Shown: positions 33,346-48,305 of the stretch, piece after piece
Position numbering within the stretch: position 1 is the first letter of the stretch
Layout of the letters: every line of letters begins with the position of its first letter
From: Candidatus Aminicenantes bacterium JdFR-78
Lineage (GTDB): Bacteria > Acidobacteriota > Aminicenantia > JdFR-78
Direction of reading: 5' to 3'
NCBI GenBank assembly: GCA_002010665.1
Contig: MTON01000025.1
Span: 1-51,042 of the forward strand
Length of the DNA: 51,042 nt
Notes under the pieces: generated by a model
The model's input: only the letters and a program-made list of their open reading frames with translations
Databases searched by the model: none
What the model was told of the DNA's origin: nothing
Translations under genes and position numbers: made by a program

Positions 33346-33927
33346 ATGGAGATTGAAAGAAAGGTAAAATATGAAGCTGAATTGGACAAAAATTTTTTAA
33401 GGGAAATAATCGAACTATCTCATTGCGAAGAAATTGAAAGGTGTATTCAATGTGGAACTTGTAGCAGTTCTTGTCCAATGGCAGTTTATATGGATTATCC
33501 ACCAAGAAAAATTATGGCAATGGTTAAAGAAGGTTTTAAGGACGAAGCACTGAGGAGCTTTACTATTTGGCTCTGTTCCTCCTGTTATACTTGTACTGTT
33601 AGATGTCCTGCTCAAATAAAAATCACTGATGTTATGTATGCACTTAAGAGAAAGGCTATTGAAGACGGGGTTTATCCCGCTCGCTTCTCAATTCCTGTGC
33701 TTGATAAAGAAATGACTAAAATTATTCAGTCAACTGGAAGAAATTGGGAAATAGGAGTTGTAGTAAAGCTCTACTTGAAAACAAATCCATTTGGTTTGCT
33801 AAAGATGGCTCCTATTGGATTGAAACTAATTAAAACTGGAAGAATGAGTTTCAAGAAAGAGTCAATTAAGAATAAAAAACAATTGAGGAAATTGCTTAAT
33901 TTAATGAAGGAGGAAACAAATGCATGA
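33346..33927 (+). CDS. hdrC: Heterodisulfide reductase subunit C-like protein
   Basis: A 193-residue soluble iron-sulfur protein. Two [4Fe-4S] motifs are clear: C33-x2-C36-x2-C39-x3-C43 (CIQCGTCSSSCP) and C77-x2-C80-x2-C83-x3-C87 (CSSCYTCTVRCP). PPRKIMAMVKEGF between them is typical of HdrC. It relays electrons from HdrA to HdrB. This form is the soluble type, with no membrane anchor. The start ATG has AAAGGAGG upstream; its stop overlaps hdrB by 8 bp. It opens a 19-gene operon. Confidence 0.93.
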   Translation: MEIERKVKYEAELDKNFLREIIELSHCEEIERCIQCGTCSSSCPMAVYMDYPPRKIMAMVKEGFKDEALRSFTIWLCSSCYTCTVRCPAQIKITDVMYALKRKAIEDGVYPARFSIPVLDKEMTKIIQSTGRNWEIGVVVKLYLKTNPFGLLKMAPIGLKLIKTGRMSFKKESIKNKKQLRKLLNLMKEETNA

Positions 33928-34786
33928 ATACACATATTATCCTGGTTGTTCAATAAAGGGAACAGCAAAACATTATGATGAGTCATTAATTTCAACTTTT
34001 AATGCTTTGGGAATAAAAATGAAGGAACTTGAAGATTGGAATTGTTGTGGTGCAACTGCCTACTTTTCTGTAGATGATAAAATGGCTATAGCTATTTCAG
34101 GAAGAAACATTGCATTAGCTCAGAAACAAGGAAAGGATATAGTTGCTCCTTGTGCTGGATGTTATTTAACTTTAAGAAAATCTCTTGAATTTCTTAATGA
34201 TAACCCTGATAAAGTTGAAAATTTAATCAGAGAATTGGCAATTATAGGAGGAGAATTTCCATTTAATATTAAAGTTAGACACCCCCTTGAAGTTTTAATT
34301 AATGATTACGGCCTTGATAAAATTAAAGAGAAAATTAAAAAGAATTTAGGTGATTTGCGCATTGCCTGTTATTATGGATGTCAGGTTGTAAGACCTTTTA
34401 CTGATTTTGATGATCCTGACTATCCTACTTCCCTTGATAAGCTAATGGAGTTAACAGGTGCCACACCAGTTGATTATTCACCAAAGACAAGGTGTTGTGG
34501 TGGTTCTTTAACAGGCACATTAGAAGAAGTTGGACTGAGGTTAAACTATATTCTTCTTAGAGAAGCTAAAAAGAAAAATGCAGATGTTATTGTGACTCTT
34601 TGTCCATTATGTCAGTTCAATCTCGAAATATATCAGGATAAAATAGTTAAAAAATATGGAGAGGACATAAGAGTGCCAATTTTTTATTTTACTCAAATTC
34701 TTGGACTTGCATTGGATATTCCAATTAAGGAATTAGGATTTTCCCGATCAGTAATACCTTTAAATGAATTTTTTGCAAGAGTATAA
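33920..34786 (+). CDS. hdrB: Heterodisulfide reductase subunit B-like protein
   Basis: A 288-residue protein with two CCG domains that bind the paired non-cubane [4Fe-4S] clusters of HdrB. The first runs from YYPGC (C10) through WNCCG (C42, C43) to CAGC (C78, C81); the second comprises CYYGCQVVRP, TRCCGGSLTG and CPLCQFN. HdrB is the site of disulfide reduction in methanogens. In non-methanogens the substrate is usually unknown, with DsrC-like proteins one proposal for sulfate reducers. It is coupled to hdrC and followed by a truncated hdrA. Confidence 0.93.
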   Translation: MHEYTYYPGCSIKGTAKHYDESLISTFNALGIKMKELEDWNCCGATAYFSVDDKMAIAISGRNIALAQKQGKDIVAPCAGCYLTLRKSLEFLNDNPDKVENLIRELAIIGGEFPFNIKVRHPLEVLINDYGLDKIKEKIKKNLGDLRIACYYGCQVVRPFTDFDDPDYPTSLDKLMELTGATPVDYSPKTRCCGGSLTGTLEEVGLRLNYILLREAKKKNADVIVTLCPLCQFNLEIYQDKIVKKYGEDIRVPIFYFTQILGLALDIPIKELGFSRSVIPLNEFFARV

Positions 34787-34797
34787 GGAGGGAAGAA

Positions 34798-35649
34798 ATG
34801 GGTAAAAATAATAACAATATAAAGATTGGAGTTTATATTTGCCATTGTGGAAGAAACATAGCTGAAAAGGTAAATGTTTATGAGGTGGTGGATTTTGCCT
34901 CCAAATTGGATAATGTTGCTGTGGCAAGAGAATATAAATTTATGTGTTCTGATCCTGGTCAGGAATTAATAAAAAAGGACATAAAGGAATTAGGGTTGAA
35001 TAGGGTGGTTGTAGCATCATGCTCTCCATTGATGCACGAACCGACCTTCAGAAATACTACCTTTGAGGGTGGAATAAATCCATTTTATTTTCAAATGGCT
35101 AATATTAGAGAACAGTGCTCATGGGTTACAGAAGATAGTCAGAAGGCAACAGAGAAGGCGAAAGCTCTCGTTGCAGCTGCAGTTAAGCGAGTTATTTATC
35201 ATCAACCTCTGCAAAAGAAAGAAGTTCCTGTCCGACCAGAAGTTTTGATTGTTGGAGGAGGAATTGCAGGAATTCATGCAGCATTAGTCTATGCTAATTC
35301 CGGAAAAAAGGTCTATTTGGTGGAGAAAGAGCCCTCAATAGGTGGTCAAATGTCATATCTTGACAAGACTTTCCCAACTCTTGATTGTGCAGCATGTATT
35401 TTAACACCCAAGATGACAGAGGTTGGAAAACATCCAAATATTGAATTATTGACTTATAGTGAAGTGAAAGAAGTCTCAGGATATGTTGGAAATTTTAAAG
35501 TTAAGATAAGAAAAAAAGCAAGATATGTGGATCTTGAAAAATGTAATGGGTGTGGAATATGCTGGGAGACTTGTCCTACAGTAATCACACCTAAAAGAAG
35601 GGTTATCAGGAAAGGAGATATGATAATAAAAGAAGTTAAAGGAGAATAA
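34798..35649 (+). CDS. hdrA: HdrA N-terminal half (split heterodisulfide reductase subunit A)
   Basis: Only 283 residues, whereas full HdrA has about 650. Present are the N-terminal cluster domain (C15, C17, C50, C75, C107; VVASCSPLMHEPTFR), the FAD Rossmann start VLIVGGGIAGIHAAL (149-163), IGGQM, the HdrA-specific TLDCAACILTPKM (195-206) and one ferredoxin motif C249-x2-C252-x2-C255-x3-C259. The protein stops exactly there. The rest of HdrA, from the RQAVP block onward, is found 6.5 kb downstream in the C-terminal part of the gene at 42110. This is a real stop codon, overlapped by the next ATG, not a frameshift. It has GGAGGG upstream of the ATG. Confidence 0.9.
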   Translation: MGKNNNNIKIGVYICHCGRNIAEKVNVYEVVDFASKLDNVAVAREYKFMCSDPGQELIKKDIKELGLNRVVVASCSPLMHEPTFRNTTFEGGINPFYFQMANIREQCSWVTEDSQKATEKAKALVAAAVKRVIYHQPLQKKEVPVRPEVLIVGGGIAGIHAALVYANSGKKVYLVEKEPSIGGQMSYLDKTFPTLDCAACILTPKMTEVGKHPNIELLTYSEVKEVSGYVGNFKVKIRKKARYVDLEKCNGCGICWETCPTVITPKRRVIRKGDMIIKEVKGE

Positions 35650-36032
35650 TGAATAGAAAAATTAAAAAAATGACTCTTAGGGAAATAAAGGATTTGTTGA
35701 AGTGCGAGGTTATTACAGGAGATGATAATCTTGATCTTGAGGTTCTCTCAGGTGGTGGATGTGATTTGATGAGTGATGTACTTGCATTTGGGAAGCCTGG
35801 GATGTTGCTTCTCACTGGATTAACTAATGCACAATCAGTTAGAACCGCAGATATTGTAGATATAAAAGCCATTATCTATGTCAGGGGAAAGAGGCCTGAT
35901 AAAGAGGGGATTGAATTAGCAAAAAAGAAAGGAATTCCTCTACTTACTACAAAACTCATGATGTTTGAGGCATGTGGCATACTTTATTCAGCAGGACTCC
36001 CTGGCGTTAATGAAGCTGAGAAAATTAGCTAA
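35649..36032 (+). CDS. DRTGG-domain protein (first copy)
   Basis: A 127-residue protein with a DRTGG-type regulatory domain: MTLREIKDLLKCEVITGDDN, GGGCDLMSDVLAFGKPGMLL, IKAIIYVRGKRPD and KKGIPLLTTKLMMFEACGIL. Such domains occur in pyrophosphatases, phosphotransacetylases and serine kinases as ligand sensors, and as single-domain proteins next to [FeFe]-hydrogenase genes. The ATG overlaps the hdrA stop by one base with AAAGGAG upstream. A diverged second copy is encoded at 37816. Its ligand is unknown; it is probably part of the redox signalling block. Confidence 0.78.
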   Translation: MNRKIKKMTLREIKDLLKCEVITGDDNLDLEVLSGGGCDLMSDVLAFGKPGMLLLTGLTNAQSVRTADIVDIKAIIYVRGKRPDKEGIELAKKKGIPLLTTKLMMFEACGILYSAGLPGVNEAEKIS

Positions 36033-36033
36033 A

Positions 36034-36477
36034 ATGGCTATTGAAAATCGAATTGAACATAGCTTTGTAATCAAAGGAAAGGATTTTGGAAATGCTGGAA
36101 ATGTTTCAACAAAAATTAAAGATTTACTTAAGGAAATTGGCATCCCGCCCTCTATTATCCGTCGTGTTGCAATTGCAACTTATGAGGCAGAAATGAATGT
36201 AGTAATGTATGCTAATCATGGAACTCTGAATTTTGCACTTACTCCTCAGAAAATTGAGATTGTAGTGGATGATAGAGGCCCAGGAATAGAGGATATTGAA
36301 TTAGCAATGCAGGAAGGGTATTCAACTGCCACAGAGGAAATGAGAGAAATGGGATTTGGAGCAGGGATGGGTTTGCCAAATATAAAGAAAAATTCAGACG
36401 AGTTTGAGATAACTTCTGAAGTAAATAAAGGAACAAAGCTGAGAATTGTAATTTATCTGGATAGTAAAAATGAATAA
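36034..36477 (+). CDS. RsbW-like serine/threonine kinase/anti-sigma-type ATPase
   Basis: A 147-residue GHKL-fold ATPase of the anti-sigma-factor kinase type (HATPase_c_2). The N box is IATYEAEMNVVMYANHG, the ATP lid motifs are DDRGPGIEDIELA and GFGAGMGLPNIKK, and there is no phospho-accepting His domain. The frame is open to ATG 35965, but that start would overlap the DRTGG gene by 68 bp and add residues foreign to the family. ATG 36034 is one base after the preceding stop. It probably phosphorylates or binds a partner in the same module. Confidence 0.8.
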   Translation: MAIENRIEHSFVIKGKDFGNAGNVSTKIKDLLKEIGIPPSIIRRVAIATYEAEMNVVMYANHGTLNFALTPQKIEIVVDDRGPGIEDIELAMQEGYSTATEEMREMGFGAGMGLPNIKKNSDEFEITSEVNKGTKLRIVIYLDSKNE

Positions 36478-37819
36478 ATATTACCATTCAATCTATATTA
36501 ATGAGAAAAAATGTGAAGGTAGAATGCGGTGCATGAGAGTTTGTCCAACTCAGGCAATAAGAGTTAGAAATGGAAAAGCAATAATTTTAGAAGAAAGATG
36601 TATAGATTGTGGGGAATGCATCAATGCTTGTCCAAATAATGCAATAATGCCTCTAACTGATCCATTTACAACAATCTCTAAATTTAAATATACTATGGCT
36701 ATTCCATCTCCTGCATTATATGCACAATTTGGGAGGGAAATTCTTCCCGACAAAGTTTTGGAAGGATTGAGAAGAATAGGTTTCAATGATGCTTATGATG
36801 TAGCTCAATCGTGTGGAGAGGTAAGTTTTGCAATTCAGGAATATTTAAGAGAGTATAGAGGCCCAAAACCTCTTATTCTATCTTCTTGTCCTCCTGTTGT
36901 TCGACTTATACAGGTGAAGTATCCTGAATTGATTGATCTAATTATGCCCATTGAGACCCCGAGAGAAGTTGCAGGAAAAGAGATTAAAGAGAGGAAATCA
37001 AAAGAATTGGGACTTAAGAAAGAAGACATAGGGGCAATTTATCTTACACCCTGTCCTGCGAAAATGATTTCAATCAGGCAGCCTGCAGAAGGTGGAAAAT
37101 CTCACTTAGATGGTGCTATTTCAATTAAAGATATATATGCTCCGCTATTATCTGCAATGGAAAGTTTAAGCAAATCAGACTATAAATCGTCTTTAGAAAG
37201 TCTTTGTATATTGGGAATAGGATGGGCAATTGCAGGAGGTATTTCAAAAACATTAAGACTAAGAAATTCACTTGCAGTTTCAGGATTAAGGAATGTGGTT
37301 AGGGTGTTGGATGATATAGAAAATGGTAAATTGAAGAATATAGATTTTTTAGAAGCATATTCTTGTTTAGAAGGATGTGTTGGAGGTTCTTTAACAGTTG
37401 AGAACGTTTATATTTCATATAATAAAATTTTTCAATTAATCGAGGATCTTGAATTGCGAAAAATAAAAGCATGTCCTGACATAAGGGAAGTCAGGAGGAA
37501 ATTTAAACAAAATTATTATTTCAGAAAGGAGAAGATATCCCCTCGTCCTCTTAAGCCCCTTGATACATATATATCAAAAGCAATTCTCAAAATGAAAGAA
37601 AAAGATGAGATTTATGAAAGTTTACCAAAAATTGATTGTGGCGCATGTGGTTCTCCAACTTGTGAAACTTTTGCAGAAGATGTTGTAAAAGGAGAAGCTA
37701 AAATAACAGATTGTATTTTTAAAGTTCCTGAGAGATTTGAGGAGATATCAAAGGAATTAATAGAACTATTGAGGAAATCTCCTTATCAGAGATTAGGAAT
37801 TGAGAAGGAGGAACAATGA
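36470..37819 (+). CDS. [FeFe]-hydrogenase-like iron-sulfur sensor protein
   Basis: A 449-residue protein. The N-terminal ferredoxin domain has C44-C47-C50-C54 intact, but its first motif is C15-x5-C21-x3-C25, with Arg18 where the second ligand usually sits. The [FeFe]-hydrogenase large-subunit fold follows: SSCPPVV (C140), TPCPAKM (C195) and EAYSCLEGCVGG (C299, C303) correspond to H-cluster motifs L1-L3, so all four cluster cysteines remain. The proton-relay Cys of TSCCPxW is a Pro. A C-terminal CGACGSPTC domain (C390, C393, C398, C415) binds another [4Fe-4S]. It lies among signalling genes, so a sensor is more likely than a catalyst. Confidence 0.8.
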   Translation: MNKYYHSIYINEKKCEGRMRCMRVCPTQAIRVRNGKAIILEERCIDCGECINACPNNAIMPLTDPFTTISKFKYTMAIPSPALYAQFGREILPDKVLEGLRRIGFNDAYDVAQSCGEVSFAIQEYLREYRGPKPLILSSCPPVVRLIQVKYPELIDLIMPIETPREVAGKEIKERKSKELGLKKEDIGAIYLTPCPAKMISIRQPAEGGKSHLDGAISIKDIYAPLLSAMESLSKSDYKSSLESLCILGIGWAIAGGISKTLRLRNSLAVSGLRNVVRVLDDIENGKLKNIDFLEAYSCLEGCVGGSLTVENVYISYNKIFQLIEDLELRKIKACPDIREVRRKFKQNYYFRKEKISPRPLKPLDTYISKAILKMKEKDEIYESLPKIDCGACGSPTCETFAEDVVKGEAKITDCIFKVPERFEEISKELIELLRKSPYQRLGIEKEEQ

Positions 37820-38154
37820 AACTAAAGGAAATAGTTGAAAAATTAAATTTAACAATCATAGCAGGTAAAGAAAAGCTAGAAAATGAAGTTACTGGTGGAT
37901 ATGCAAGTGACCTTTTAAGTGATGTAATTGCAAATAGTAAGGAAGGAAATTTGTGGCTAACTCTTCAAACCCATCAGAACATAATTGCTGTCGCTACATT
38001 GAAAGAATTAGCTGGAATTGTAATTGTAAATAATCGCGAGCCCGATGAGGAGACTGTTAGAAAGGCAGAGCAGGAAAAAATCCCGCTTTTAGGGTCAAAA
38101 TTAACAGCTTTTGAATTAGCAGGAAAACTTTATGAGCTTGGGATAAAAGGTTAG
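37816..38154 (+). CDS. DRTGG-domain protein (second copy)
   Basis: A 112-residue protein related to the product of 35649: MKLKEIVEKLNLTIIAGKEK, VTGGYASDLLSDVIANSKEG and QEKIPLLGSKLTAFELAGKL align with the first copy. The ATG overlaps the previous stop (ATGA) with GGAGG upstream. Pairs of single-domain DRTGG proteins flanking an [FeFe]-hydrogenase-like protein occur in anaerobes. A ligand-binding role in the signalling block is inferred; no catalytic residues are seen. Confidence 0.78.
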   Translation: MKLKEIVEKLNLTIIAGKEKLENEVTGGYASDLLSDVIANSKEGNLWLTLQTHQNIIAVATLKELAGIVIVNNREPDEETVRKAEQEKIPLLGSKLTAFELAGKLYELGIKG

Positions 38155-38159
38155 GGAAA

Positions 38160-38906
38160 ATGTTAAAAGAATTTAAAGCTGATCTTCACATTCATACATG
38201 TCTTTCTCCATGCACAGATTTTGAAATGGCTCCATCAAGAATAATTGAGAAAAGTAGAGAGAACAAACTGGATCTAATTGCTATTTGTGACCATAATTCT
38301 TCTGAAAATGTTGATGCACTCATGAAAGCTTGTCATGATCAGAAGATTAGAGTAATTCCAGGAATGGAAGTTACCAGCAAGGAAGAAGTCCATATTTTAG
38401 CTCTTTTTGAAAATAGAGATAAAGCCATAGAGTTTCAAGAAGTTATTTATGATAACTTACCTGGTAAAAATGAAGAAGATTTATATGGAATGCAAGTGGT
38501 AGTGAATGAGAAGGGTGAAGTTATTGATTTTAATCAAAAACTTCTTATTGGTGCAACAACTTTATCAGTAGAGGATATAGTAGAATATATTCATTCCTTT
38601 AATGGATTGGCCATTGCCTCACATATAGATAGGGAGGCTTTCAGTATCATAGGACAACTTGGATTCATTCCTCCTGATCTTGAACTAGATGCATTAGAAA
38701 TTTCACCCAGAATTGATTATTATGAAGCACAAGGGAAATTTAATTTCAGTTTTCCTTTAATTTGTTCTTCAGATGCTCATTATCTGGATGAGATCGGTAG
38801 AGGATTCACCATATTTTTAATTGAAAGCGCTAATATATATGAGATAAAAAAAGCACTAAAGGAAGAAAATGGCAGAAAAATTTTGAAGGTGAGTAGAAAT
38901 GTTTGA
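38160..38906 (+). CDS. PHP-domain metal-dependent phosphoesterase
   Basis: A 248-residue PHP-superfamily protein. Metal ligands are seen in ADLHIHTCLSPCTD (HxH), CDHNS (Asp-His), GMEVTSKEEVHILALF (Glu, His), ASHIDRE and SSDAHYL near the end. Such proteins hydrolyse phosphoesters, often nucleotides or 3'-phosphorylated compounds; the substrate is unknown. It lies 5 bp after the second DRTGG gene and overlaps the next ATPase gene by 8 bp. In this setting it may turn over a signalling nucleotide or remove a phosphate from a partner protein (inference). Confidence 0.83.
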   Translation: MLKEFKADLHIHTCLSPCTDFEMAPSRIIEKSRENKLDLIAICDHNSSENVDALMKACHDQKIRVIPGMEVTSKEEVHILALFENRDKAIEFQEVIYDNLPGKNEEDLYGMQVVVNEKGEVIDFNQKLLIGATTLSVEDIVEYIHSFNGLAIASHIDREAFSIIGQLGFIPPDLELDALEISPRIDYYEAQGKFNFSFPLICSSDAHYLDEIGRGFTIFLIESANIYEIKKALKEENGRKILKVSRNV

Positions 38907-39429
38907 GGATTTATCATTGCACATACTGGATATAGTGGAAAATTCAATAAGAGCTGAAGCGAAAAATATTAAAATTAAAATCACGGAAAATTTGGAAAAA
39001 GATTTACTCAGTATTGAGATAGAAGATGATGGGAAAGGAATGAATGAAGAGATGGTAAAGAAAGTACTTGATCCCTTTGTAACCACCAAATCAGGACATA
39101 AAGTGGGATTAGGTCTTCCTTTTTTAGCCCAAGCATCTAAAATGGCTAATGGCAATATATTTATTAAGTCAAAACCAGGGAAAGGAACAAAAATTACAGC
39201 AGTATTTCAGCATAGTCATATTGATCGACAACCCTTGGGAGACATTAAAGAGACTCTAATGACTCTTATTATTGGTAATCCAGAAGTTAATTTCATTTTC
39301 ACTTACAGAAGGAATGGTAAAAAATATCATTTGGACACAAAAAAATTAAGTAAAAATAATCTTAAAAATTTATTAAATAATTTAAATAAGATTTTTGAAA
39401 ATTTTCCTCGGGAGGTAAAAAATGAATAG
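38899..39429 (+). CDS. GHKL-type ATPase (histidine-kinase-like catalytic domain)
   Basis: A 176-residue protein with the ATP-binding domain of histidine kinases only: N box HILDIVENSIRAEAKNI, G1 box EIEDDGKGMNEEMV, F box-like DPFVTTK and G2 box VGLGLPFLAQ. No dimerisation/phospho-acceptor helix and no sensor domain are present, so any phosphorylation would be in trans. The start overlaps the PHP gene and the stop overlaps the next gene. It completes a six-gene signalling block between hdrA and the diaphorase genes. Confidence 0.83.
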   Translation: MFEDLSLHILDIVENSIRAEAKNIKIKITENLEKDLLSIEIEDDGKGMNEEMVKKVLDPFVTTKSGHKVGLGLPFLAQASKMANGNIFIKSKPGKGTKITAVFQHSHIDRQPLGDIKETLMTLIIGNPEVNFIFTYRRNGKKYHLDTKKLSKNNLKNLLNNLNKIFENFPREVKNE

Positions 39430-39898
39430 AGAGGAAATTAGAAAAATACTTGAAAAGTGGGAAAGAAGAGAGGACGCCATTATAGAAATACTTCATGATA
39501 TTCAGAATAAGTATAATTATTTACCCAAGGATGTCCTAATAGAGATTTCTAAAGAACTGGATATGCCTCTAAGTCAAATTTGTAGTGTTGCAACTTTTTA
39601 CAATTGGTTTAGTCTTACTCCGAGAGGTAAACACAAAATTGGTGTTTGTATGGGGACTCCTTGTCATGTAAAAGGAGCTCCTTTGATTATTAAAGCCATT
39701 GAAAAAGAACTGGGTATAAAGGAAGGACAGACAACAAAGGATTTGAATTTTACCCTCGAGATTACTGGTTGTGTTGGAACTTGTGGGCTTGCTCCTGTGG
39801 TAGTGATTGATGGTGAACTTTATGGAGATTTAAATCAAAATAAAATTCTTAAAATATTGAGGAAATATAAAGAGGGTGGAGGAGGTAAAAATGCCTAA
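39422..39898 (+). CDS. hndA: NuoE/HndA-type [2Fe-2S] subunit
   Basis: A 158-residue thioredoxin-fold ferredoxin like NuoE, HoxE and HndA. The N-terminal helical part (ILHDIQNKYNYLPKDVL, SVATFYNWFSLTPRGK) precedes the [2Fe-2S] site C76-x4-C81 and C117-x3-C121 (CMGTPC, TGCVGTC). It works with the NuoF-type subunit in NAD(H) oxidation or reduction. The start overlaps the ATPase gene by 8 bp and has GGGAGG upstream; its end overlaps hndB by 8 bp. Confidence 0.93.
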   Translation: MNREEIRKILEKWERREDAIIEILHDIQNKYNYLPKDVLIEISKELDMPLSQICSVATFYNWFSLTPRGKHKIGVCMGTPCHVKGAPLIIKAIEKELGIKEGQTTKDLNFTLEITGCVGTCGLAPVVVIDGELYGDLNQNKILKILRKYKEGGGGKNA

Positions 39899-40274
39899 AT
39901 TAAAATTAGAAGATTTACAAAAAATTAAGGAAAAGGTAAGAAGAGAAACAGTTCTTAGAGAGGGTGCAGGTAAGGCAAAAATAACTGTTCATATGGGGAC
40001 CTGCGGAATTGCTGCAGGAGCAAGAAAAATAATGAGTGTTATTTTAGAAGAAATAGAAAAAAGAGATGTTAAAGACATTATAGTAACTACTTCTGGATGT
40101 GCTGGGCTTTGCAGTCGTGAACCAATGATAACAGTGGAACTATTAGGAAAAGCTCCTGTAAAATATGTGGATTTGACAGAAGATAAAATGCGAAGAATAT
40201 TTGAAGAACATGTTCTTAATGGAAAGATAGTAAAAGAATATATGTTAGCAATAGGAAGCGAAAGAGTGGATTAA
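39891..40274 (+). CDS. hndB: HndB-type small [2Fe-2S] protein
   Basis: A 127-residue thioredoxin-like ferredoxin with ITVHMGTCGIAAGARKIM (C38) and VTTSGCAGLCSREPMI (C70, C74), the pattern of HndB of NADP-reducing hydrogenases and of the N-terminal domain of NuoF-like HndC/HydB. A GTG at 39876 is in frame but lies in the GGTGGAGGAGG ribosome site; ATG 39891 is the start. This subunit separates Hnd/Hyd-type complexes from plain HoxEFU. Confidence 0.9.
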   Translation: MPKLKLEDLQKIKEKVRRETVLREGAGKAKITVHMGTCGIAAGARKIMSVILEEIEKRDVKDIIVTTSGCAGLCSREPMITVELLGKAPVKYVDLTEDKMRRIFEEHVLNGKIVKEYMLAIGSERVD

Positions 40275-40295
40275 AAAATGAAAGGAGGTGTTTAA

Positions 40296-42098
40296 ATGCC
40301 TTATAGAGCTCATTTAATGGTTTGTGCAGGGACAGGATGTGTTTCTAATAATTCTCTCAAAATAAAAGAAGCTTTGGAAAGAGAAATCAAGAAAAGAGGT
40401 TTGGAAAATGAAATTCTTGTAGTCTCAACTGGTTGTAATGGCTTTTGTGGCCATGGTCCAATAATGGTTGTTCAACCGGACGGAATATTCTATCAATTTC
40501 TAAAAGAAGAAGATATTCCTCTTCTTGTAGAAGAACATTTATTAAAAGGAAGACCTGTGAAAAGATTAATGTACATTCCTCCTGAAGAGAAAGAGCCAAT
40601 ACCGAGAATGAAAGATATTAGGTTTTTTGGTGATCAGTTATTAGTTACTTTGAGAAACCGTGGTCTAATCGATCCAGAAAAAATTGATGATTATATAGCA
40701 AGAGATGGATATGCAGCCTTAGCCAAGGTTCTTACAGAAATGACACCTGAACAAGTAATAGAAGAAATTAAAAAATCAGGTCTGAGAGGAAGAGGAGGTG
40801 GAGGATTTCCTACTGGTTTAAAGTGGGAATTCTGTCGTAAAGCAAAAGGTGAGCCAAAATATGTAATCTGTAATGCAGATGAAGGTGACCCTGGCGCATT
40901 TATGGATAGAAGTATTATTGAAGGCGATCCTCATGCAGTCATAGAAGGTATGACAATTGGTGCATATGCTATTGGTGCGAAAAAAGGATTTATTTATGTG
41001 AGAATGGAATATCCATTAGCTGTGGAAAGATTTTATATTGCTGTTCAGCAGGCAAAAGAATATGGCCTCTTAGGAAAAGACATTCTAGGAACAGGATTTG
41101 ACTTTGACATTGAAGTTAGAAGAGGAGCAGGTGCATTTGTAAGCGGTGAGGAAACAGCTTTAATTGCTTCAATTGAAGGAAAACTAAGTGAACCAAGGCC
41201 TCGACCTCCATATCCTGCTGAGAAAGGTTTATGGGGAAAACCAACGAACATAAATAATGTGGAAACTTGGGCAAATATACCTGTTATAATTTTAAGAGGG
41301 GCAAAGTGGTTTAGTTCTATTGGGACCAAGACAAGTAAGGGAACAAAGGTTTTCTCTTTAGCAGGTAAAGTTTTTAATACTGGTTTAATAGAAGTTCCTA
41401 TGGGAATTACCTTGAGAAAAATAATCTTTGATATAGGAGGAGGAATTCCAAATGGCAAAAAATTTAAGGCTGTTCAGACAGGAGGGCCTTCAGGAGGGTT
41501 CATTCCAGAAAGTCTTCTTGATCTTCCAGTGGATTATGAAAGTTTAACAGAAGCTGGAGCAATAATGGGATCAGGTGGTATGGTGGTTATGGATGAAGAT
41601 AATTGTATGGTAGATGTTGCAAAATATTTTGTAGATTTCTTAAGAAATGAGTCATGCGGAAAATGTACTCCATGCAGAGAAGGTCTGCCAGCTCTTTCCA
41701 AAATATTAACTGATATTACTGAAGGAAGAGGCAAAGAGGGAGATATTGAATTACTTCAAGAAATTTGTGAGACAATGAGAGATACCGCTCTTTGTGGTCT
41801 TGGACAGACTGCACCAAATCCTGTCCTGAGCACTATTCGATATTTTAGAGATGAGTACGAGGCACACATTAAACAGAAAAAGTGCCCGGCTCGTGTTTGT
41901 CGGGAATTAATTAGGTATTTTATAGATGAAGAAATATGCGTAAAAGAAGGCCATGGTTGTGATGTCTGTAGAAAGAATTGTCCTGAGAATGCCATAAGTG
42001 GTGAATTAAATCGGGCTCATAGAATTAATCCTGAGCTGTGTACAAAATGCGGATTATGTTTTGAGTTATGTCGATTCAATGCTATAAAAATTGAGTAA
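40296..42098 (+). CDS. hndC: NuoF/HndC-type NAD(H)- and FMN-binding subunit
   Basis: A 600-residue flavoprotein. In order: a thioredoxin-like [2Fe-2S] domain (C10, C15, C47, C51); the NADH/FMN core with GLRGRGGGGFPTGLKWE near residue 163, CNADEGDPGAFMDRS and GAGAFVSGEETAL; the [4Fe-4S] site ESCGKCTPCREG near residue 451; and a C-terminal 2[4Fe-4S] ferredoxin domain (GHGCDVCRKNCP and CTKCGLCFELC). It is the NAD(H)-active subunit, as in electron-bifurcating HydB/HndC. The start ATG has AAAGGAGG upstream, 21 bp after hndB. Confidence 0.95.
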   Translation: MPYRAHLMVCAGTGCVSNNSLKIKEALEREIKKRGLENEILVVSTGCNGFCGHGPIMVVQPDGIFYQFLKEEDIPLLVEEHLLKGRPVKRLMYIPPEEKEPIPRMKDIRFFGDQLLVTLRNRGLIDPEKIDDYIARDGYAALAKVLTEMTPEQVIEEIKKSGLRGRGGGGFPTGLKWEFCRKAKGEPKYVICNADEGDPGAFMDRSIIEGDPHAVIEGMTIGAYAIGAKKGFIYVRMEYPLAVERFYIAVQQAKEYGLLGKDILGTGFDFDIEVRRGAGAFVSGEETALIASIEGKLSEPRPRPPYPAEKGLWGKPTNINNVETWANIPVIILRGAKWFSSIGTKTSKGTKVFSLAGKVFNTGLIEVPMGITLRKIIFDIGGGIPNGKKFKAVQTGGPSGGFIPESLLDLPVDYESLTEAGAIMGSGGMVVMDEDNCMVDVAKYFVDFLRNESCGKCTPCREGLPALSKILTDITEGRGKEGDIELLQEICETMRDTALCGLGQTAPNPVLSTIRYFRDEYEAHIKQKKCPARVCRELIRYFIDEEICVKEGHGCDVCRKNCPENAISGELNRAHRINPELCTKCGLCFELCRFNAIKIE

Positions 42099-42109
42099 GG
42101 AGGTATAAT

Positions 42110-43867
42110 ATGGTTAAAATTAAAATAAATGGAAAAGAAACTAAGGTCGAGAAAGGTACAACTATTCTCAAAGCTGCTGAAAAATTAGATATTAAAATTC
42201 CTACACTTTGTTATCATCCTCTTTTAGAGCCCTATTCAGCCTGTAGAATTTGCATGGTGGAAATTAAGATAGGCAAGCGCAATGAATTGGTAACAGCTTG
42301 TAATACTGTAGTTGAAAATGGAATGGAGATATTTACAGATTCAGAAAGGGCATTGAAAGCGCGAAAAATGAACATCGAGCTTCTCATGGCTCGAGCTCCT
42401 GCTGCCGAGCCAGTAAAGGAGATAGCAAAGGAACTAGGCGTTGAAAAAACAAGATTTGAGATTAAAGACCCAAACGAAAAATGTATTCTCTGTGGTTTAT
42501 GTGTCAGGACGTGTGAACAAGTAGTGGGAGCAAAAGCTATAAGTTTTATTGAAAGGGGTGCAGATCGAAAAGTTTCTACTCCTTTTGGTGAACCTTCTGA
42601 AGATTGTATAGGCTGTGCTGCCTGCGCCTATTTCTGTCCAACAGAAGCAATAACAGTTGAAGATTTGGATAAAAGAGAAGTAATTCATGATGAAATGATA
42701 CTTGGTCCAAATTCTGCTATAAGGGTGCCCATTCGTCAGGCAGTTCCAATGGTACCCTTTATAGACGAGGAAAATTGTATTCACTTTAAAACCGGAAATT
42801 GTAAGCTCTGTGAAAAAGTTTGCGAAAAGGAAGCAATTAATCATGATATGGAAGATGAAGAAATTGAGTTAGAAGTGGGTACTATTATTATTGCTACAGG
42901 ATTTAAAGGATTTGATGCCAAGAAGGTCCCGGCATATGGTTATGGACGATTTAAAAATGTTCTTACAGCCTTAGAATTTGAGAGAATGGTTAATGCATCA
43001 GGTCCTACTGGTGGACAGATTAGACTGGCTGATGGTAGAGAGCCGGAGTCGGTTGGAATTATTCACTGTGTTGGCTCGCGAGATGAAAATTTCAATGAAT
43101 ATTGTTCAAGAGTTTGCTGTATGTATTCACTTAAATTTGCCCATATAATTAAGGAAAGAACTAATGCAGAGGTTTATAATTTTTATATTGATATGCGGGC
43201 TTTTGGAAAGGGATATGAAGAATTTTACCATAAGTTACTTGAGGAAGGAGTCCATTTTATTAGAGGAAGAGTTTCTGAGATCTCTGATGTCGCCCTAACA
43301 CCAGAAGAAGAAGGAAAATTAATAATTAGGGTAGAGGATACACTTGTGGGAACTGTAAGAAGGATTCCTGTTGATATGGCTATCCTCTCAGTGGGTTTAG
43401 AGCCTAACTTTGGTTCAGATGAAATTACACGAATGTTCAATCTCTCGTGCAGTCAGGATGCTTTCTTCTTGGAAAAGCATCCGAAACTGGCTCCTGTATC
43501 AACAGCTGCAGACGGTATTTTCCTGGCTGGAACTTGCCAGGGGCCAAAGGATATTCCTGATACTGTTGCTCAGGCAGGTGCAGCAGCTTCAGAAGCATTG
43601 GCACTCGCAGATAAAGGTAAATTTGAACTTGAACCTGTCACTGCAGAAATTAATGAAGAACTTTGCTCTGGATGTCAATTGTGTATTGCATTGTGTCCAT
43701 TCAGTGCAATAAGTTATAATAAAGAGAAAGATATTTCTGAAGTGAATGAGGCGCTCTGTAAAGGATGTGGTACATGTGTGGCTGCATGTCCAAGTGGAGC
43801 TGCTATGCAAAATCATTTTCGTGATGAACAGATTATTGCTGAAATTGAGGGAATTCTCAGTGTTTAA
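42110..43867 (+). CDS. Fusion: NuoG/HoxU-like ferredoxin module + C-terminal half of HdrA
   Basis: A 585-residue composite. Residues 1-80 form a [2Fe-2S] domain (C34, C45, C48, C64). The His-Cys3 [4Fe-4S] site usual in NuoG/HoxU is absent; [20 protein letters not shown] occupies its place. Two [4Fe-4S] sites follow (C125-C135, C166-C176). From about residue 203 the sequence is Hdr[17 protein letters not shown]223-C231-C234-C238, [38 protein letters not shown] for FAD, then two C-terminal [4Fe-4S] motifs (C519-C529, C550-C560). It supplies exactly what the gene at 34798 lacks. The ATG has AAGGAGG upstream. Confidence 0.9.
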
Positions 43868-43878
43868 AGGAGGTTAAA

Positions 43879-44310
43879 ATGAGTAATGAAAAATTTGAAC
43901 CAAAAATCGTTGGATTTTTATGCAATTGGTGTTCCTATACTGGAGCCGATTTGGCTGGAACATCAAGAATGACATATCAGCCAAATTTGAGAATAATCAG
44001 AGTAATGTGCAGTGGAAGAGTTGATCCGCAATTTATTTTTAAAGCATTTAAGGAAGGAGCGGATGGAGTATTGATCGCTGGTTGTCATCCTGGAGATTGT
44101 CATTATAAAGAGGGAAATTATAAAGCTTTAAGAAGATATAAACTCATTAAAAAGCTACAATCCGAATTTGGGATTGAGGATGAAAGAATAAGATTAGAAT
44201 GGATTTCAGCTTCTGAAGGAGCTAAATTTCAGGAAGTTTGCAATGAATTTACTGAAACAATTAGAAAATTAGGTCCCTTTAATTCAAAGAAAGGAGGAAA
44301 AAATGAGTAA
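43879..44310 (+). CDS. mvhD: F420-non-reducing hydrogenase delta subunit (MvhD)
   Basis: A 143-residue MvhD protein: [53 protein letters not shown] and the [15 protein letters not shown] helix are all family blocks. It carries a [2Fe-2S] cluster and links HdrA to the hydrogenase MvhAG, accepting electrons from the small subunit. It is placed directly after the HdrA C-terminal half and before mvhG, in the same logic as methanogen mvhDGA. The ATG has AAAGGAGG upstream. Confidence 0.95.
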
Positions 44311-45289
44311 GCCAAAAGTTGCTTTTTATTGGTGTGCCTCTTGTGGTGGATGTGAGGAAGCTGTAGTTGATTTAGCTGAAAATATTTTGAAAGTAGTTGA
44401 AGCAGTGGATATTGTTTTTTGGCCTGTTGCATTAGATTTTAAAAGAAAAGATATTGAAGCAATGCCTGATAAATCTATAGCTGTTACCTTTATAAATGGA
44501 GCTATTAGATTGTCCGAACAAGAGGAAATGGTAAAACTGCTCAGGAAAAAATCCCAGTTAATAGTGGCTTTCGGAAGTTGTGCTCATTTAGGTGGTGTTC
44601 CAGGACTAGCCAATTTCTGGGATAGAGAATCAATTTTCAATAGAGCTTATAAGACAACTCCATCCACCCATAATCCAGAGGGGATTGTTCCTCAGGAAAA
44701 GGTTACAGTGGATGGAAAGGAATTGACGCTCCCTAAGTTCTATAATACGGTATTCCGTCTCGACCAGATAATAGATGTAGATTATTATTTACCAGGATGT
44801 GCACCACCGCCGGATTTAGTAATGAATGCAATTAATGCTATTCTGGAGGGTAAGCTCCCACCAAAAGGTACTGTTTTATCTCCGAATAAATCTTTATGCG
44901 ATGATTGCAAGAGAAATGAAACAAAGCCTGAAAAATTAACAATTAAAGAAATTAAAAGACCTCATGAAATTATGCTCGATCCTGAAAAGTGTTTTCTTGC
45001 ACAGGGGGTAATTTGTATGGGACCAGCAACTCGGACAGGTTGTGGTGAAAGATGTATAGAGGCAAATATGCCCTGTAGAGGCTGTTTTGGCCCTACTGAC
45101 CAGGTGATTGACCAAGGAGCTAAATTTCTTTCAGTTCTGGCTTCAATAATAGATGTAAATGATGAAAAAGAAATAGAGAAGGTCATGGATACTATTGTTG
45201 ACCCAGCTGGAACATTTTATAGATTTAGTCTTCCTTCTTCATTAATGAGAAGAAAAAGAATGCCTTCTGTAGCAGATAATGAAAAATAA
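44303..45289 (+). CDS. mvhG: Group 3 [NiFe]-hydrogenase small subunit (MvhG-like)
   Basis: A 328-residue small subunit. The proximal cluster ligands are seen in [35 protein letters not shown] and [11 protein letters not shown]. Further cysteines ([34 protein letters not shown]) provide the medial and distal [4Fe-4S] clusters. There is no twin-arginine signal, so the enzyme is cytoplasmic. The start overlaps mvhD by 8 bp with AAAGGAGG upstream. Confidence 0.95.
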
Positions 45290-45306
45290 TAATTTTGGAG
45301 GTTAAA

Positions 45307-46779
45307 ATGAGCAATAATAGAATAACAATAGACCCAATAACTCGTTTAGAAGGTCATGGAAAAATCGAAATTTTTCTTGATGAAAAAGGTAATGTAGATA
45401 AAGCTTTTTTGCAAATTCCTGAATTAAGGGGATTTGAGCAGTTTGCAGTTGGTAGACCTGCTGAAGAGATGCCAAGAATAACTCCCAGGATTTGTGGTGT
45501 TTGTCCAACTGCCCATCATATGGCATCTACTAAGGCCCTGGATGATTTGTTTAAGGTGGAGCCCACCCCTGTTGCAAAAAAAATAAGAGAATTTATTTAT
45601 AGTACTTTTATGTTAGAAGATCATACCCTTCATTTCTTTTTCCTTGGTGGTCCAGATTTTGTAGTGGGTCCTCAAGCACCAGCAGCGGAAAGAAACATTT
45701 TAGGTGTATTAAACAAGGTTGGCTTGGAAATAGGGAAAAAGGTTATTGAGATAAGAAAGCAATGCAGGGATATTATTAGTTATTTAGGTGGAAAAGTAAT
45801 TCATCCAGTATGCGGTTTGCCAGGTGGAGTTTCAAAGGGGCTTACAGAAGAAGACAGGAAAAAATTCCTGGAAGTGGCTAAAGCAGGAGTTGAATTTGCA
45901 CAATTTGCTTTAAAGATATTTGACGATATTGTTTTGAAAAACAAAGAATATGTGGATATTGTTACAGGAGATGTGTATTATCATCGCACGTATTATATGG
46001 GATTGGTTGATGAAAATAACAAGGTAAATTTTTATGATGGATATATTAGAGTTGTTGACCCAAATGGGAAGGAATATGCGAAATTCAAATGTCAGGATTA
46101 TTTAAATCATATAGCTGAACATGTGGAGCCATGGAGTTATATTAAATTTCCTTATCTTAAAAATGTTGGTTGGAAAGGTTTTGTGGATGGAGAGGATAGT
46201 GGAATTTATAGAGTAGCTCCTCTTGCTCGTTTAAATGCTTCGGATGGGATGGCCACTCCTCTTGCTCAGGAAGCTTATGAGAAAATGTATGAAACTCTTG
46301 GTGGTAAACCTGCTCATAATACTCTGGCTTTCCACTGGGCTCGTTTAATAGAGGCTCTATATGCAGCAGAGAGAATGGTTGAACTTCTTGAAGATAAGGA
46401 AATCACGGATCCCAATATTAGGAATATTCCAACAGAAACTCCAAAAGAGGGAATTGGAGTTGTTGAAGCTCCAAGAGGAACATTAATTCATCATTATAAA
46501 ACTGATGATAGAGGAATTTTAACAGAGGCAAATCTGATAGTTGCTACAGTTAATAATGCAGCTGCAATAAATATGAGCATTAGAAGAGCTGCTGAGAAAT
46601 TAATAAAGAATGGGAATGTATCTGATGGAATATTAAACATGGTAGAAATGGCATTTAGAGCTTATGACCCATGTCATGCCTGCGCAACTCATTCATTACC
46701 AGGTGATATGCCCTTAATTATAAATATATATGATGCTGATAGAAAATTAATTCATCAGTTTAAGAGAAATGTAAAATAG
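45307..46779 (+). CDS. mvhA: Group 3 [NiFe]-hydrogenase large (catalytic) subunit (MvhA-like)
   Basis: A 490-residue catalytic subunit that cleaves or forms H2. The N-terminal active-site pair is C63 and C66 in RICGVCPTAHHMAS; the C-terminal pair is C456 and C459 in YDPCHACATH. The Ni and Fe ligands are complete. A 28-residue tail (SLPGDMPLIINIYDADRKLI onward) follows H462 and should be removed during maturation by the endopeptidase encoded just downstream. Start ATG 45307 is used; the in-frame TTG at 45295 lies in the TTGGAGG ribosome site. The type fits group 3 (3c/3d-like), cytoplasmic and bidirectional. Confidence 0.95.
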   Translation: MSNNRITIDPITRLEGHGKIEIFLDEKGNVDKAFLQIPELRGFEQFAVGRPAEEMPRITPRICGVCPTAHHMASTKALDDLFKVEPTPVAKKIREFIYSTFMLEDHTLHFFFLGGPDFVVGPQAPAAERNILGVLNKVGLEIGKKVIEIRKQCRDIISYLGGKVIHPVCGLPGGVSKGLTEEDRKKFLEVAKAGVEFAQFALKIFDDIVLKNKEYVDIVTGDVYYHRTYYMGLVDENNKVNFYDGYIRVVDPNGKEYAKFKCQDYLNHIAEHVEPWSYIKFPYLKNVGWKGFVDGEDSGIYRVAPLARLNASDGMATPLAQEAYEKMYETLGGKPAHNTLAFHWARLIEALYAAERMVELLEDKEITDPNIRNIPTETPKEGIGVVEAPRGTLIHHYKTDDRGILTEANLIVATVNNAAAINMSIRRAAEKLIKNGNVSDGILNMVEMAFRAYDPCHACATHSLPGDMPLIINIYDADRKLIHQFKRNVK

Positions 46780-46781
46780 GA

Positions 46782-47249
46782 GTGAAAACACTTATTTTAG
46801 GTCTGGGTAATGAATTATTTGGAGATGATGGTGTTGGTATCCATGTAATTAGAGAATTAAAAAAAAGAGGTGGGTTTAAATCAAATATAGATTTAGTTGA
46901 AACCTCAGTTTCAGGATTAGCCCTTTTAGATATAATTGCAAATTATGATCGTCTGGTTATAATTGATACAATAAAAAGGGAAAACCCAAAACCTGGAAGC
47001 ATAAGATTAATAAATCTCAACCAGATTCGTCATGTTCCCGGCCCATCACCTCATTATGTTTCTTTCCCTCAGATTATTACTCTTGGGAAAAAATTTGGAT
47101 TGAAAATGCCAAAATTAGTTAAAATTATTGCAGTTGAAGCAAAGAGTATTTATCATTTGGGAGAGGAACTTTCCCCAGAAGTAAAAAGTGCGATTCCAGA
47201 AATTATTAATAAAATTAATGAATTAATTGAAGAATGGGAAAAGAAATGA
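46782..47249 (+). CDS. [NiFe]-hydrogenase maturation endopeptidase
   Basis: A 155-residue HycI/HoxW/HyaD-family protease: LILGLGNELFGDDGVGIHVI at the N terminus, YDRLVIIDTIKR with the central Asp, and PSPHYVSFPQI with the conserved His, the three residue sites that recognise Ni in the large-subunit precursor. It removes the C-terminal tail of the large subunit after nickel insertion. The start is GTG, 2 bp after the mvhA stop. It is clearly dedicated to the neighbouring hydrogenase. Confidence 0.9.
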   Translation: MKTLILGLGNELFGDDGVGIHVIRELKKRGGFKSNIDLVETSVSGLALLDIIANYDRLVIIDTIKRENPKPGSIRLINLNQIRHVPGPSPHYVSFPQIITLGKKFGLKMPKLVKIIAVEAKSIYHLGEELSPEVKSAIPEIINKINELIEEWEKK

Positions 47250-47917
47250 AGAAAAAAAGGGAATACACGGTTCTTGTGGAACTACTTGGGTCAAATCAAA
47301 GGGTTGCAAATGAAATAAGAAGGAGACTTACAGAAAATGGGACTCTTGTTATTAATTTTATGAGTTCTCCTGGTGCAGGAAAGACCAGTTTACTGGAGAT
47401 AATAGGTGAAAATTTAAAGAAAAATTATAGATTGGCTGTAATAGAAGGGGACATAGAAACGGAAAAAGATGCTGAACGCATTAGAGCAAAAGGAATTCCA
47501 GCAATTCAGATTACAACAGGAGGTGCTTGTCACCTTGAAGCAAAAATGCTCGGTAAAATTTTTGATAAAATTCCCAAAGACCTTGATTTTTTATTCATTG
47601 AAAATATAGGAAATTTAGTTTGTCCAGCTAATTATGACCTTGGCGAGCATATTCGTTGTGTTCTTCTATCAGCACCTGAAGGTGACGATAAGCCAAAAAA
47701 ATATCCCAAAGCTTTTATTACATCTCAGTGTTTAATTATAACCAAATCAGATTTATTTCCTTATTTACCTTTTGACCCTGAAAGGGCTAAAAAAGAGGCG
47801 CTTTCAATCAATCCAAAAATGGAGGTTTTTATTACATCTGCTATTAATGGGGAAGGAATAGACGATTTGATTGAGTATTTTAAAACATCACTACATGAAG
47901 TGAGGAGTAAAGAGTGA
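47246..47917 (+). CDS. hypB: Hydrogenase/urease nickel-insertion GTPase HypB
   Basis: A 223-residue HypB. P-loop FMSSPGAGKTSLLE, GDIETEKDAERI, metal-site GGACHLEAKM, NIGNLVCPANYDLGE and the G4-type ITKSDLFPYLPFD are present. The N terminus lacks the His-rich nickel store and CxxCGC motif of some HypB proteins. The start is ATG 47246 (ATGA overlap with the protease stop); ATG 47234 is a possible alternative 4 codons longer. Its last codons lie in a short tandem repeat. It works with HypA to load nickel. Confidence 0.93.
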   Translation: MKKKREYTVLVELLGSNQRVANEIRRRLTENGTLVINFMSSPGAGKTSLLEIIGENLKKNYRLAVIEGDIETEKDAERIRAKGIPAIQITTGGACHLEAKMLGKIFDKIPKDLDFLFIENIGNLVCPANYDLGEHIRCVLLSAPEGDDKPKKYPKAFITSQCLIITKSDLFPYLPFDPERAKKEALSINPKMEVFITSAINGEGIDDLIEYFKTSLHEVRSKE

Positions 47918-47927
47918 GGAGTAAGGA
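47900..47927 (+). repeat. Tandem 14-bp repeat GTGAGGAGTAA(A/G)GA
   Basis: Two adjacent copies (47900-47913 and 47914-47927) span the end of hypB and the start of the spacer before hypA, encoding the VRSKE tail of HypB. The sole difference I see is A/G at position 12 of the unit. It may be a slippage product that changed the HypB C terminus. Confidence 0.6.
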
Positions 47928-47960
47928 GATATTTTTAAGTTTTTTGAATTTGAGATAAAA

Positions 47961-48305
47961 ATGCATGAACTTTCAATTGTAGCAAACTTATTTGAGATAC
48001 TAAAAGAAAAGGCCAAGGAACAAAAAGCAAAGAGAATAACAAAGGTTAAACTAAAAGTTGGAGTGTTGTCAGGAGTTGTTCCAGAACTACTGGAAAGCGC
48101 TTTTGATATTTATAAAAAGAAAACCATTGCAAGTGAAGCAAAATTAGAAATAGAAAAAACACTTGTAAAAGTAAAATGTCAAAGTTGTGGTTTTGAATTT
48201 TCTCCAGAAGATTTTACAATGATATGTCCTTCTTGTGGTTCTTTTGAAATAAAAATACTTTCCGGAGATGAGCTTCTTTTAGAAAAAATGGAATTAGAAA
48301 TTTAA
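47961..48305 (+). CDS. hypA: Hydrogenase nickel-incorporation protein HypA
   Basis: A 114-residue HypA. It begins MHELSIVANLFEILKEKA, with His2 as the nickel ligand, and carries the zinc-binding pairs CQSC and CPSC in VKCQSCGFEF and ICPSCGSF. It is the last gene of the operon. HypC, HypD, HypE and HypF, which are needed to make the Fe(CN)2CO centre, are not in the window and must be encoded elsewhere. Confidence 0.95.
   Translation: MHELSIVANLFEILKEKAKEQKAKRITKVKLKVGVLSGVVPELLESAFDIYKKKTIASEAKLEIEKTLVKVKCQSCGFEFSPEDFTMICPSCGSFEIKILSGDELLLEKMELEI

Follow-up and report, generated by a model that had tools for sequence, protein, structure and literature searches.

The window, the whole 51,042-nucleotide stretch analysed here, carries an operon-like run of genes at positions 33346-48305, which brings together HdrABC-type, NuoEF, HdrA/HydA-N-terminus hybrid, Mvh-type [NiFe]-hydrogenase and HypA/HypB genes. 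This run is possibly a [NiFe] counterpart of bifurcating HydABC. The genes and motifs given below with coordinates lie on the forward strand. Genes resembling HdrC, HdrB and the HdrA N-terminus (33346-35649) are followed by a DRTGG/Hpr_kinase_N-like protein (a, 35649-36032, a weak match below the cut-off) and by an RsbW/SpoIIAB-like HATPase (36034-36477, with the start taken at ATG 36034), which overlaps by 8 bases the start of a gene for a 449-aa group-D-like [FeFe]-hydrogenase homolog, hereafter the HydS-like protein (36470-37819; ORF, Pfam, alignment and predicted structure). A second DRTGG-domain protein (b, 37816-38154) shares an ATGA overlap with the HydS-like gene and precedes a PHP-domain (metallophosphoesterase-type) protein (38160-38906) and a second HATPase_c protein (38899-39429), so that the genes of this cassette overlap or abut. 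Further downstream lie NuoE, a [2Fe-2S] thioredoxin-like protein, NuoF and an Fe-S/HdrA-type subunit (39422-43867), then MvhD (FlpD), MvhG and MvhA-type [NiFe]-hydrogenase subunits (43879-46779), MvhG being named from sequence and synteny. The hydrogenase of this operon is thus a [NiFe] and not an [FeFe] enzyme.

Pfam assigns to the HydS-like protein Fer4 domains, PF02906 (Fe_hyd_lg_C, residues 74-306, E 7.1e-27) and a C-terminal PF04060 Fe-S domain (residues 385-417), and the Pfam scan found no PAS domain. The AlphaFold2 model has a mean pLDDT of 90.2 and its best PDB matches in Foldseek are [FeFe]-hydrogenases (E 6e-20, TM-score about 0.65), so the H-domain fold is predicted to be present. 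The ferredoxin-type N-terminus holds seven of eight cysteines, which brings one site down to three. As the first-pass annotation had stated, the first ferredoxin motif, C15-x2-R18-x2-C21-x3-C25, has Arg where its second Cys would be (codon of Arg18 at 36521-36523); the same Arg is found in 30/32 orthologs, and all 25 HydG-positive Clostridia group D proteins have Cys there. The C-terminal Fe-S site, C390-x2-C393-x4-C398-x16-C415 (37637-37714), is kept as Cx2Cx4Cx16C in 32/32 orthologs, and the protein ends in ...GIEKEEQ.

Alignment to solved hydrogenases places Cys140, Cys195, Cys299 and Cys303 at the cubane ligands C300, C355, C499 and C503 of CpI. The four cysteines, listed as kept by the first-pass annotation, are indeed invariant in 80 group-D-type homologs (clade 1, clade 2 and HydG-positive Clostridia). 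The same annotation had read the proton-transfer Cys as Pro, which proved to be a misalignment: in the local sequence I-L-S-S139-C140-P, the relay position (CpI C299) is Ser139, immediately before the first H-site cysteine (both at 36884-36889), and Pro141 corresponds to the Pro that follows the Cys pair in TSCCP. The L2 motif, T193-P-C195-P-A-K198 (37046-37063), has the group D type Thr at Met353 and keeps the Cys and the Lys, while the L3 motif, E295-A-Y297-S-C299-x3-C303 (37352-37378), has Tyr at CpI Met497.

Group D (M2e) proteins have two N-terminal [4Fe-4S] motifs, the H-domain and a C-terminal Cx2Cx4Cx16C; they have no PAS domain, have lost Cys299 and carry Ser or Thr at Met353 (Land et al. 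2020, PMC8163306). The HydS-like protein shows the four cubane cysteines in L1/L2/L3, the Cx2Cx4Cx16C motif, no PAS, Ser139 for Cys299 and Thr193 for Met353; it departs from group D in having seven rather than eight ferredoxin cysteines. That the relay Cys and the PAS domain are missing is therefore ordinary, both absences being group D features. With TamHydS, the group D protein of Thermoanaerobacter mathranii (PMC8163306, PMC10407848, PMC13104023), it shares the domain order, the four H-site cysteines, Cx2Cx4Cx16C, the lack of PAS and of a Cys at 299, Thr at Met353, conserved Arg31/Asp389/Asp404 and a HATPase neighbour. The relay position of TamHydS is Ala137 (PMC11803613), and TamHydS turns over H2 without that Cys, so that its loss alone is no argument against an H-cluster. 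Its identity with the Clostridia group D proteins used for comparison is about 39-43%. For the HydS-like protein, a related-locus search with this protein alone returned one distant Clostridia match only. The window clade, 32 sequences, forms a single branch (SH-aLRT 99), and group D-type proteins fall in a branch of 97 rows, separate from those of HydA and PAS-type proteins, in a quick tree that carries a long-branch warning and does not include TamHydS. The group C sensors TmHydS, R. albus HydS and Thermoanaerobacterium HfsB (PMC10055695, PMC5707799, PMC11837493) resemble the window protein in their proposed sensory role, altered 299/353/497 positions and C-terminal Fe-S site, but they carry the PAS domain that it lacks; the PAS-type homologs of the class are only about 25-28% identical to it. 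Deletion of HfsB led to higher ethanol yield and adhE expression (PMC10055695, PMC5707799, PMC11837493).

Does the host genome encode the means to build an H-cluster? No hydE, hydF or hydG lies in the window, as the first-pass annotation had noted. That annotation had proposed searching the complete genome for HydE/F/G, with absence favouring a plain [4Fe-4S] sensor. The genome that holds the window (2.53 Mb, 42 contigs, 96.8% complete) yielded zero HydG candidates in a profile search and no HydE match (TIGR03956); for HydF, the matches were confined to the GTPase domain and did not exceed 97 bits, the cut-off being 326 bits. It contains no second PF02906 protein, the HydS-like protein being the only one.

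We then considered 142 genomes of the class, mostly incomplete MAGs, taking as catalytic HydA any PF02906 match over 200 bits. The HydS-like protein has matches at 1e-20 in 72/142 genomes; two of these (G018 and G021) contain only PAS-type matches near 1e-22, and the remaining 70 carry a group-D-like protein (E 1e-75 or better). Among those 70 genomes, neither an over-cut-off HydG (0/70) nor a catalytic HydA (0/70) was detected. Catalytic HydA is present in 12 other genomes of the class, and 10 of these 12, which serve as a positive control, have an over-cut-off HydG, two being HydG-negative. The mutual exclusion is improbable as a chance outcome: for the group-D-like protein, the Fisher value is 3e-4 with HydA and 7e-4 with HydG, values calculated on related genomes that are not independent. 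With no over-cut-off HydG and no catalytic HydA in any of the 70 genomes, an assembly gap in one genome is an unlikely reason for the absence. Hence, of the two options that the first-pass annotation had left side by side, the plain [4Fe-4S] site is favoured by the searches of the host genome and of the class, and the H-cluster-like site is not. Five genomes of the class (G013, G033, G122, G128 and G129) encode below-cut-off HydG-like proteins covering model positions up to about 384/470, and some of them have no HydA.

The HydG search is nevertheless imperfect. In Clostridia, group D proteins occur in 183/391 genomes, and HydG was found in 136 of these 183. Catalytic HydA is present in 43 of the 47 HydG-negative genomes, so HydG was there missed, absent from the assembly or divergent; only four genomes (G225, G282, G382 and G523) have neither protein. 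These cases are false negatives or unexplained absences, and the 47 genomes were accordingly dropped as a second set of group D proteins without an H-cluster. The genomes with HydA and no over-cut-off HydG are G205 (on the 2.45 Mb contig C1), G276, G253 and 40 other Clostridia genomes. Seven Clostridia group D proteins (L142, L143, L145, L147, L149, L151 and L152, from genomes G225, G198, G253, G299, G276, G211 and G162, all HydG-negative and several with HydA) have Gln at the position of TamHydS Glu252, and five of the seven have Arg at Lys358.

These Clostridia bear on the possibility that the window protein carries a full H-cluster like any ordinary sensory hydrogenase of group D, and that its maturases fall in an assembly gap, are too divergent to detect or are replaced by another route to [2Fe]. 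HydG was missed or not found there in many HydA-bearing genomes, the four cysteines and Lys198 are kept in the window protein, and TamHydS works without Cys299 (PMC8163306). We nonetheless regard a full H-cluster as improbable: HydE, HydF and HydG are jointly missing from the host genome, none of the 70 genomes with the protein has an over-cut-off HydG, as opposed to most HydA-bearing genomes of the class, and none has a catalytic HydA. The class result draws on three maturases missing from the host genome, the absence of HydA alongside that of HydG, and many genomes.

The residues around the putative diiron site also speak against a full H-cluster. The segment Thr163-Pro164-Arg165 (36956-36964) aligns with CpI S323-P324-Q325, and the Q325 column is Arg in 32/32 sequences of the window clade and Met in 25/25 HydG-positive Clostridia group D proteins. 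Likewise, the CpI M497 column is Tyr in all 32 and Leu in 24/25. CpI M497L lacks a properly integrated [2Fe] cluster, and sensory enzymes tolerate other residues at this position (PMC10055695). The proposed group D proton path runs through Glu252, Glu289, Ser249 and Asp265 of TamHydS (PMC10407848). The HydS-like protein has Ile258 (37241-37243), Glu295, Ala255 and Ser271 at these places, so that only the Glu295 step is kept and 3/4 are lost. Across the window clade, the Glu252 column is Ile, Met or Val (32/32; Glu in 23/25 HydG-positive Clostridia proteins), the Asp265 column is Ser or Ala (32/32; Asp in 24/25) and the Ser249 column is mostly Val or Ala (Ser or Thr in 24/25). The window protein is a group-D-like homolog for which two attributes of a working [FeFe]-hydrogenase, the maturases and the proposed proton path in its entirety, were not found. 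It differs from TamHydS in the lack of a detected HydEFG or HydA in its genome, in the ferredoxin Cys replaced by Arg, in the loss of Glu252, Ser249 and Asp265, and in Arg at Q325 and Tyr at M497.

Conversely, Lys198 (CpI K358) and Glu295 are kept in all 32 window-clade sequences and Pro79/Ser80 in the HydS-like protein itself, so that the diiron pocket is not wholly ruined. Loss of Glu252 was considered as a sole marker of diiron-site loss and rejected: in a second branch of the class, where HydG likewise does not reach the cut-off, 15 of 23 sequences still have this Glu, which can therefore persist for other reasons. We infer from the alignment that the residue changes around the site follow the loss of the diiron site.

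With the maturases not found and the subsite residues changed together, the HydS-like protein would bind only ordinary Fe-S clusters, and we hold with good confidence that the diiron ([2Fe]) site is absent. A eukaryotic precedent exists in Nar1/CIAO3 (PMC12621388), which shares the hydrogenase fold and the H-site [4Fe-4S] ligands and has no [2Fe] subsite because the maturases are absent; its cavity is proposed to hold a [2Fe-2S] cluster (PMC12621388). The window protein might by analogy carry or help to assemble Fe-S clusters as Nar1 does, its vacant diiron cavity possibly housing a [2Fe-2S] cluster, and the retained H-site cubane in a genome without detected maturases would fit. Nar1, however, works in cytosolic Fe-S assembly and bears a targeting Trp at its C-terminus, whereas the window protein has a different layout, with PF04060 at its C-terminus and no such Trp, and its genes are those of signalling and electron bifurcation and not of Fe-S assembly. 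This makes a Nar1-like function very unlikely.

The order DRTGG-HATPase-HydS-DRTGG-PHP-HATPase is common to the window, the class and Clostridia; a HATPase gene lies directly 5' of the HydS-like gene in nearly all group D loci examined, and the DRTGG/PHP/HATPase set is widely retained near HydS-like genes. The enzymes next to it vary: FeFe HydA in Clostridia, HdrABC, NuoEF and MvhDGA [NiFe] in the window clade, and in clade 2 either HoxU-like with HypA/HypB or a molybdopterin NuoG/FDH-like protein. In the Clostridia genome G205, the cassette adjoins RnfC and RnfB. The common partner of the cassette is usually an NADH- or ferredoxin-linked electron-transfer module and not one hydrogenase. Rnf-type genes were seen next to the HydS cassette in two Clostridia genomes (loci L148 and L149), with RnfC/RnfB confirmed in L148 only.

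Could the protein instead belong to the Hdr-NuoEF-Mvh bifurcating complex itself, as a subunit that is structural or that moves electrons between modules? Its gene sits between hdrABC and nuoEF in a single tight operon, and it has many Fe-S sites, including an RnfB-like C-terminal motif. Yet the HATPase/DRTGG/PHP cassette is not tied to one enzyme, being found with [FeFe], [NiFe], molybdopterin and Rnf enzymes, and in clade 2 it often stands on one flank of the enzyme genes. We therefore consider a subunit role doubtful, about as much so as a full H-cluster.

Rather, we favour, with moderate confidence for the mechanism as a whole, a [4Fe-4S]-only redox sensor that acts through its HATPase partners and is not an H2 sensor; its sensor function and electron source are proposed from group D kinship and gene order. 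The [2Fe] subsite would no longer be delivered to this group-D-type (HydS) homolog. Electrons from a low-potential pool, either reduced ferredoxin or the adjoining Hdr/NuoEF/Mvh complex, would flow into the N-terminal clusters and the H-site cubane, reducing them, and the protein would change shape. The RsbW/SpoIIAB-like HATPase partners, with the DRTGG and PHP proteins, would relay the signal, and its output would be an adjustment of the NADH-linked electron-bifurcating complex. In TamHydS, a shape change is induced by H2 and by photoreduction alike, and H2 does not reduce the C-terminal cluster (PMC13104023). The sensor role suggested in the first-pass annotation retains indirect support, from group D kinship and from the conserved cassette with its two HATPase proteins, while the relay-Cys evidence was misaligned. 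That annotation had overlooked the [4Fe-4S] site at the C-terminus, the altered residues next to the diiron site (Arg165, Tyr297 and Ile258) and the gene cassette.

In the group D literature, the H-cluster is assumed to be common to all [FeFe]-hydrogenase groups because HydEFG are well conserved (PMC8163306), and, for want of a native sample, a group D protein was activated by means of a synthetic cofactor (PMC10407848). The literature searched, which left most subscription papers outside its scope, contained no report of group D proteins in maturase-free genomes. We give roughly even weight, for and against, to a broader proposal, in which the class group-D-type 'hydrogenase' sensors would be a natural and widespread family without a diiron site that reads ferredoxin/NADH load via [4Fe-4S] clusters, the HATPase-DRTGG-PHP cassette would control NuoEF-linked bifurcating complexes in general, and H2 sensing by an H-cluster would be only one version. 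If so, a large branch found in genomes without catalytic HydA and HydG would indicate that the fold can be a sensor without an H-cluster, and would put in question H2 sensing as the general function of group D. It would also provide a bacterial counterpart to Nar1 and natural sequences for testing which residues hold the diiron site. The analysis also draws attention to a signalling cassette, so far uncharacterised, that goes with electron-bifurcating enzymes of several metals.

Two other sets of homologs in the class deserve mention. PAS-type (group C-like) proteins of about 700 aa when complete (L064-L071 and L081), from genomes without over-cut-off HydG (G113, G048, G114, G083, G078, G043, G082, G079 and G040), carry Arg, Phe and Gly at the positions of CpI Lys358, Cys299 and Met353, respectively. 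The Lys is kept in three HydS-like proteins (L072, L073 and L076) whose genomes have HydA, and the PAS-type homologs with Arg at Lys358 may represent a second lineage without the diiron site. Finally, 13 of the 14 aligned HydA proteins (L075, L077, L078, L079, L155 and others) read TSCSP or similar rather than TSCCP, with Ser in the CpI C300 column.
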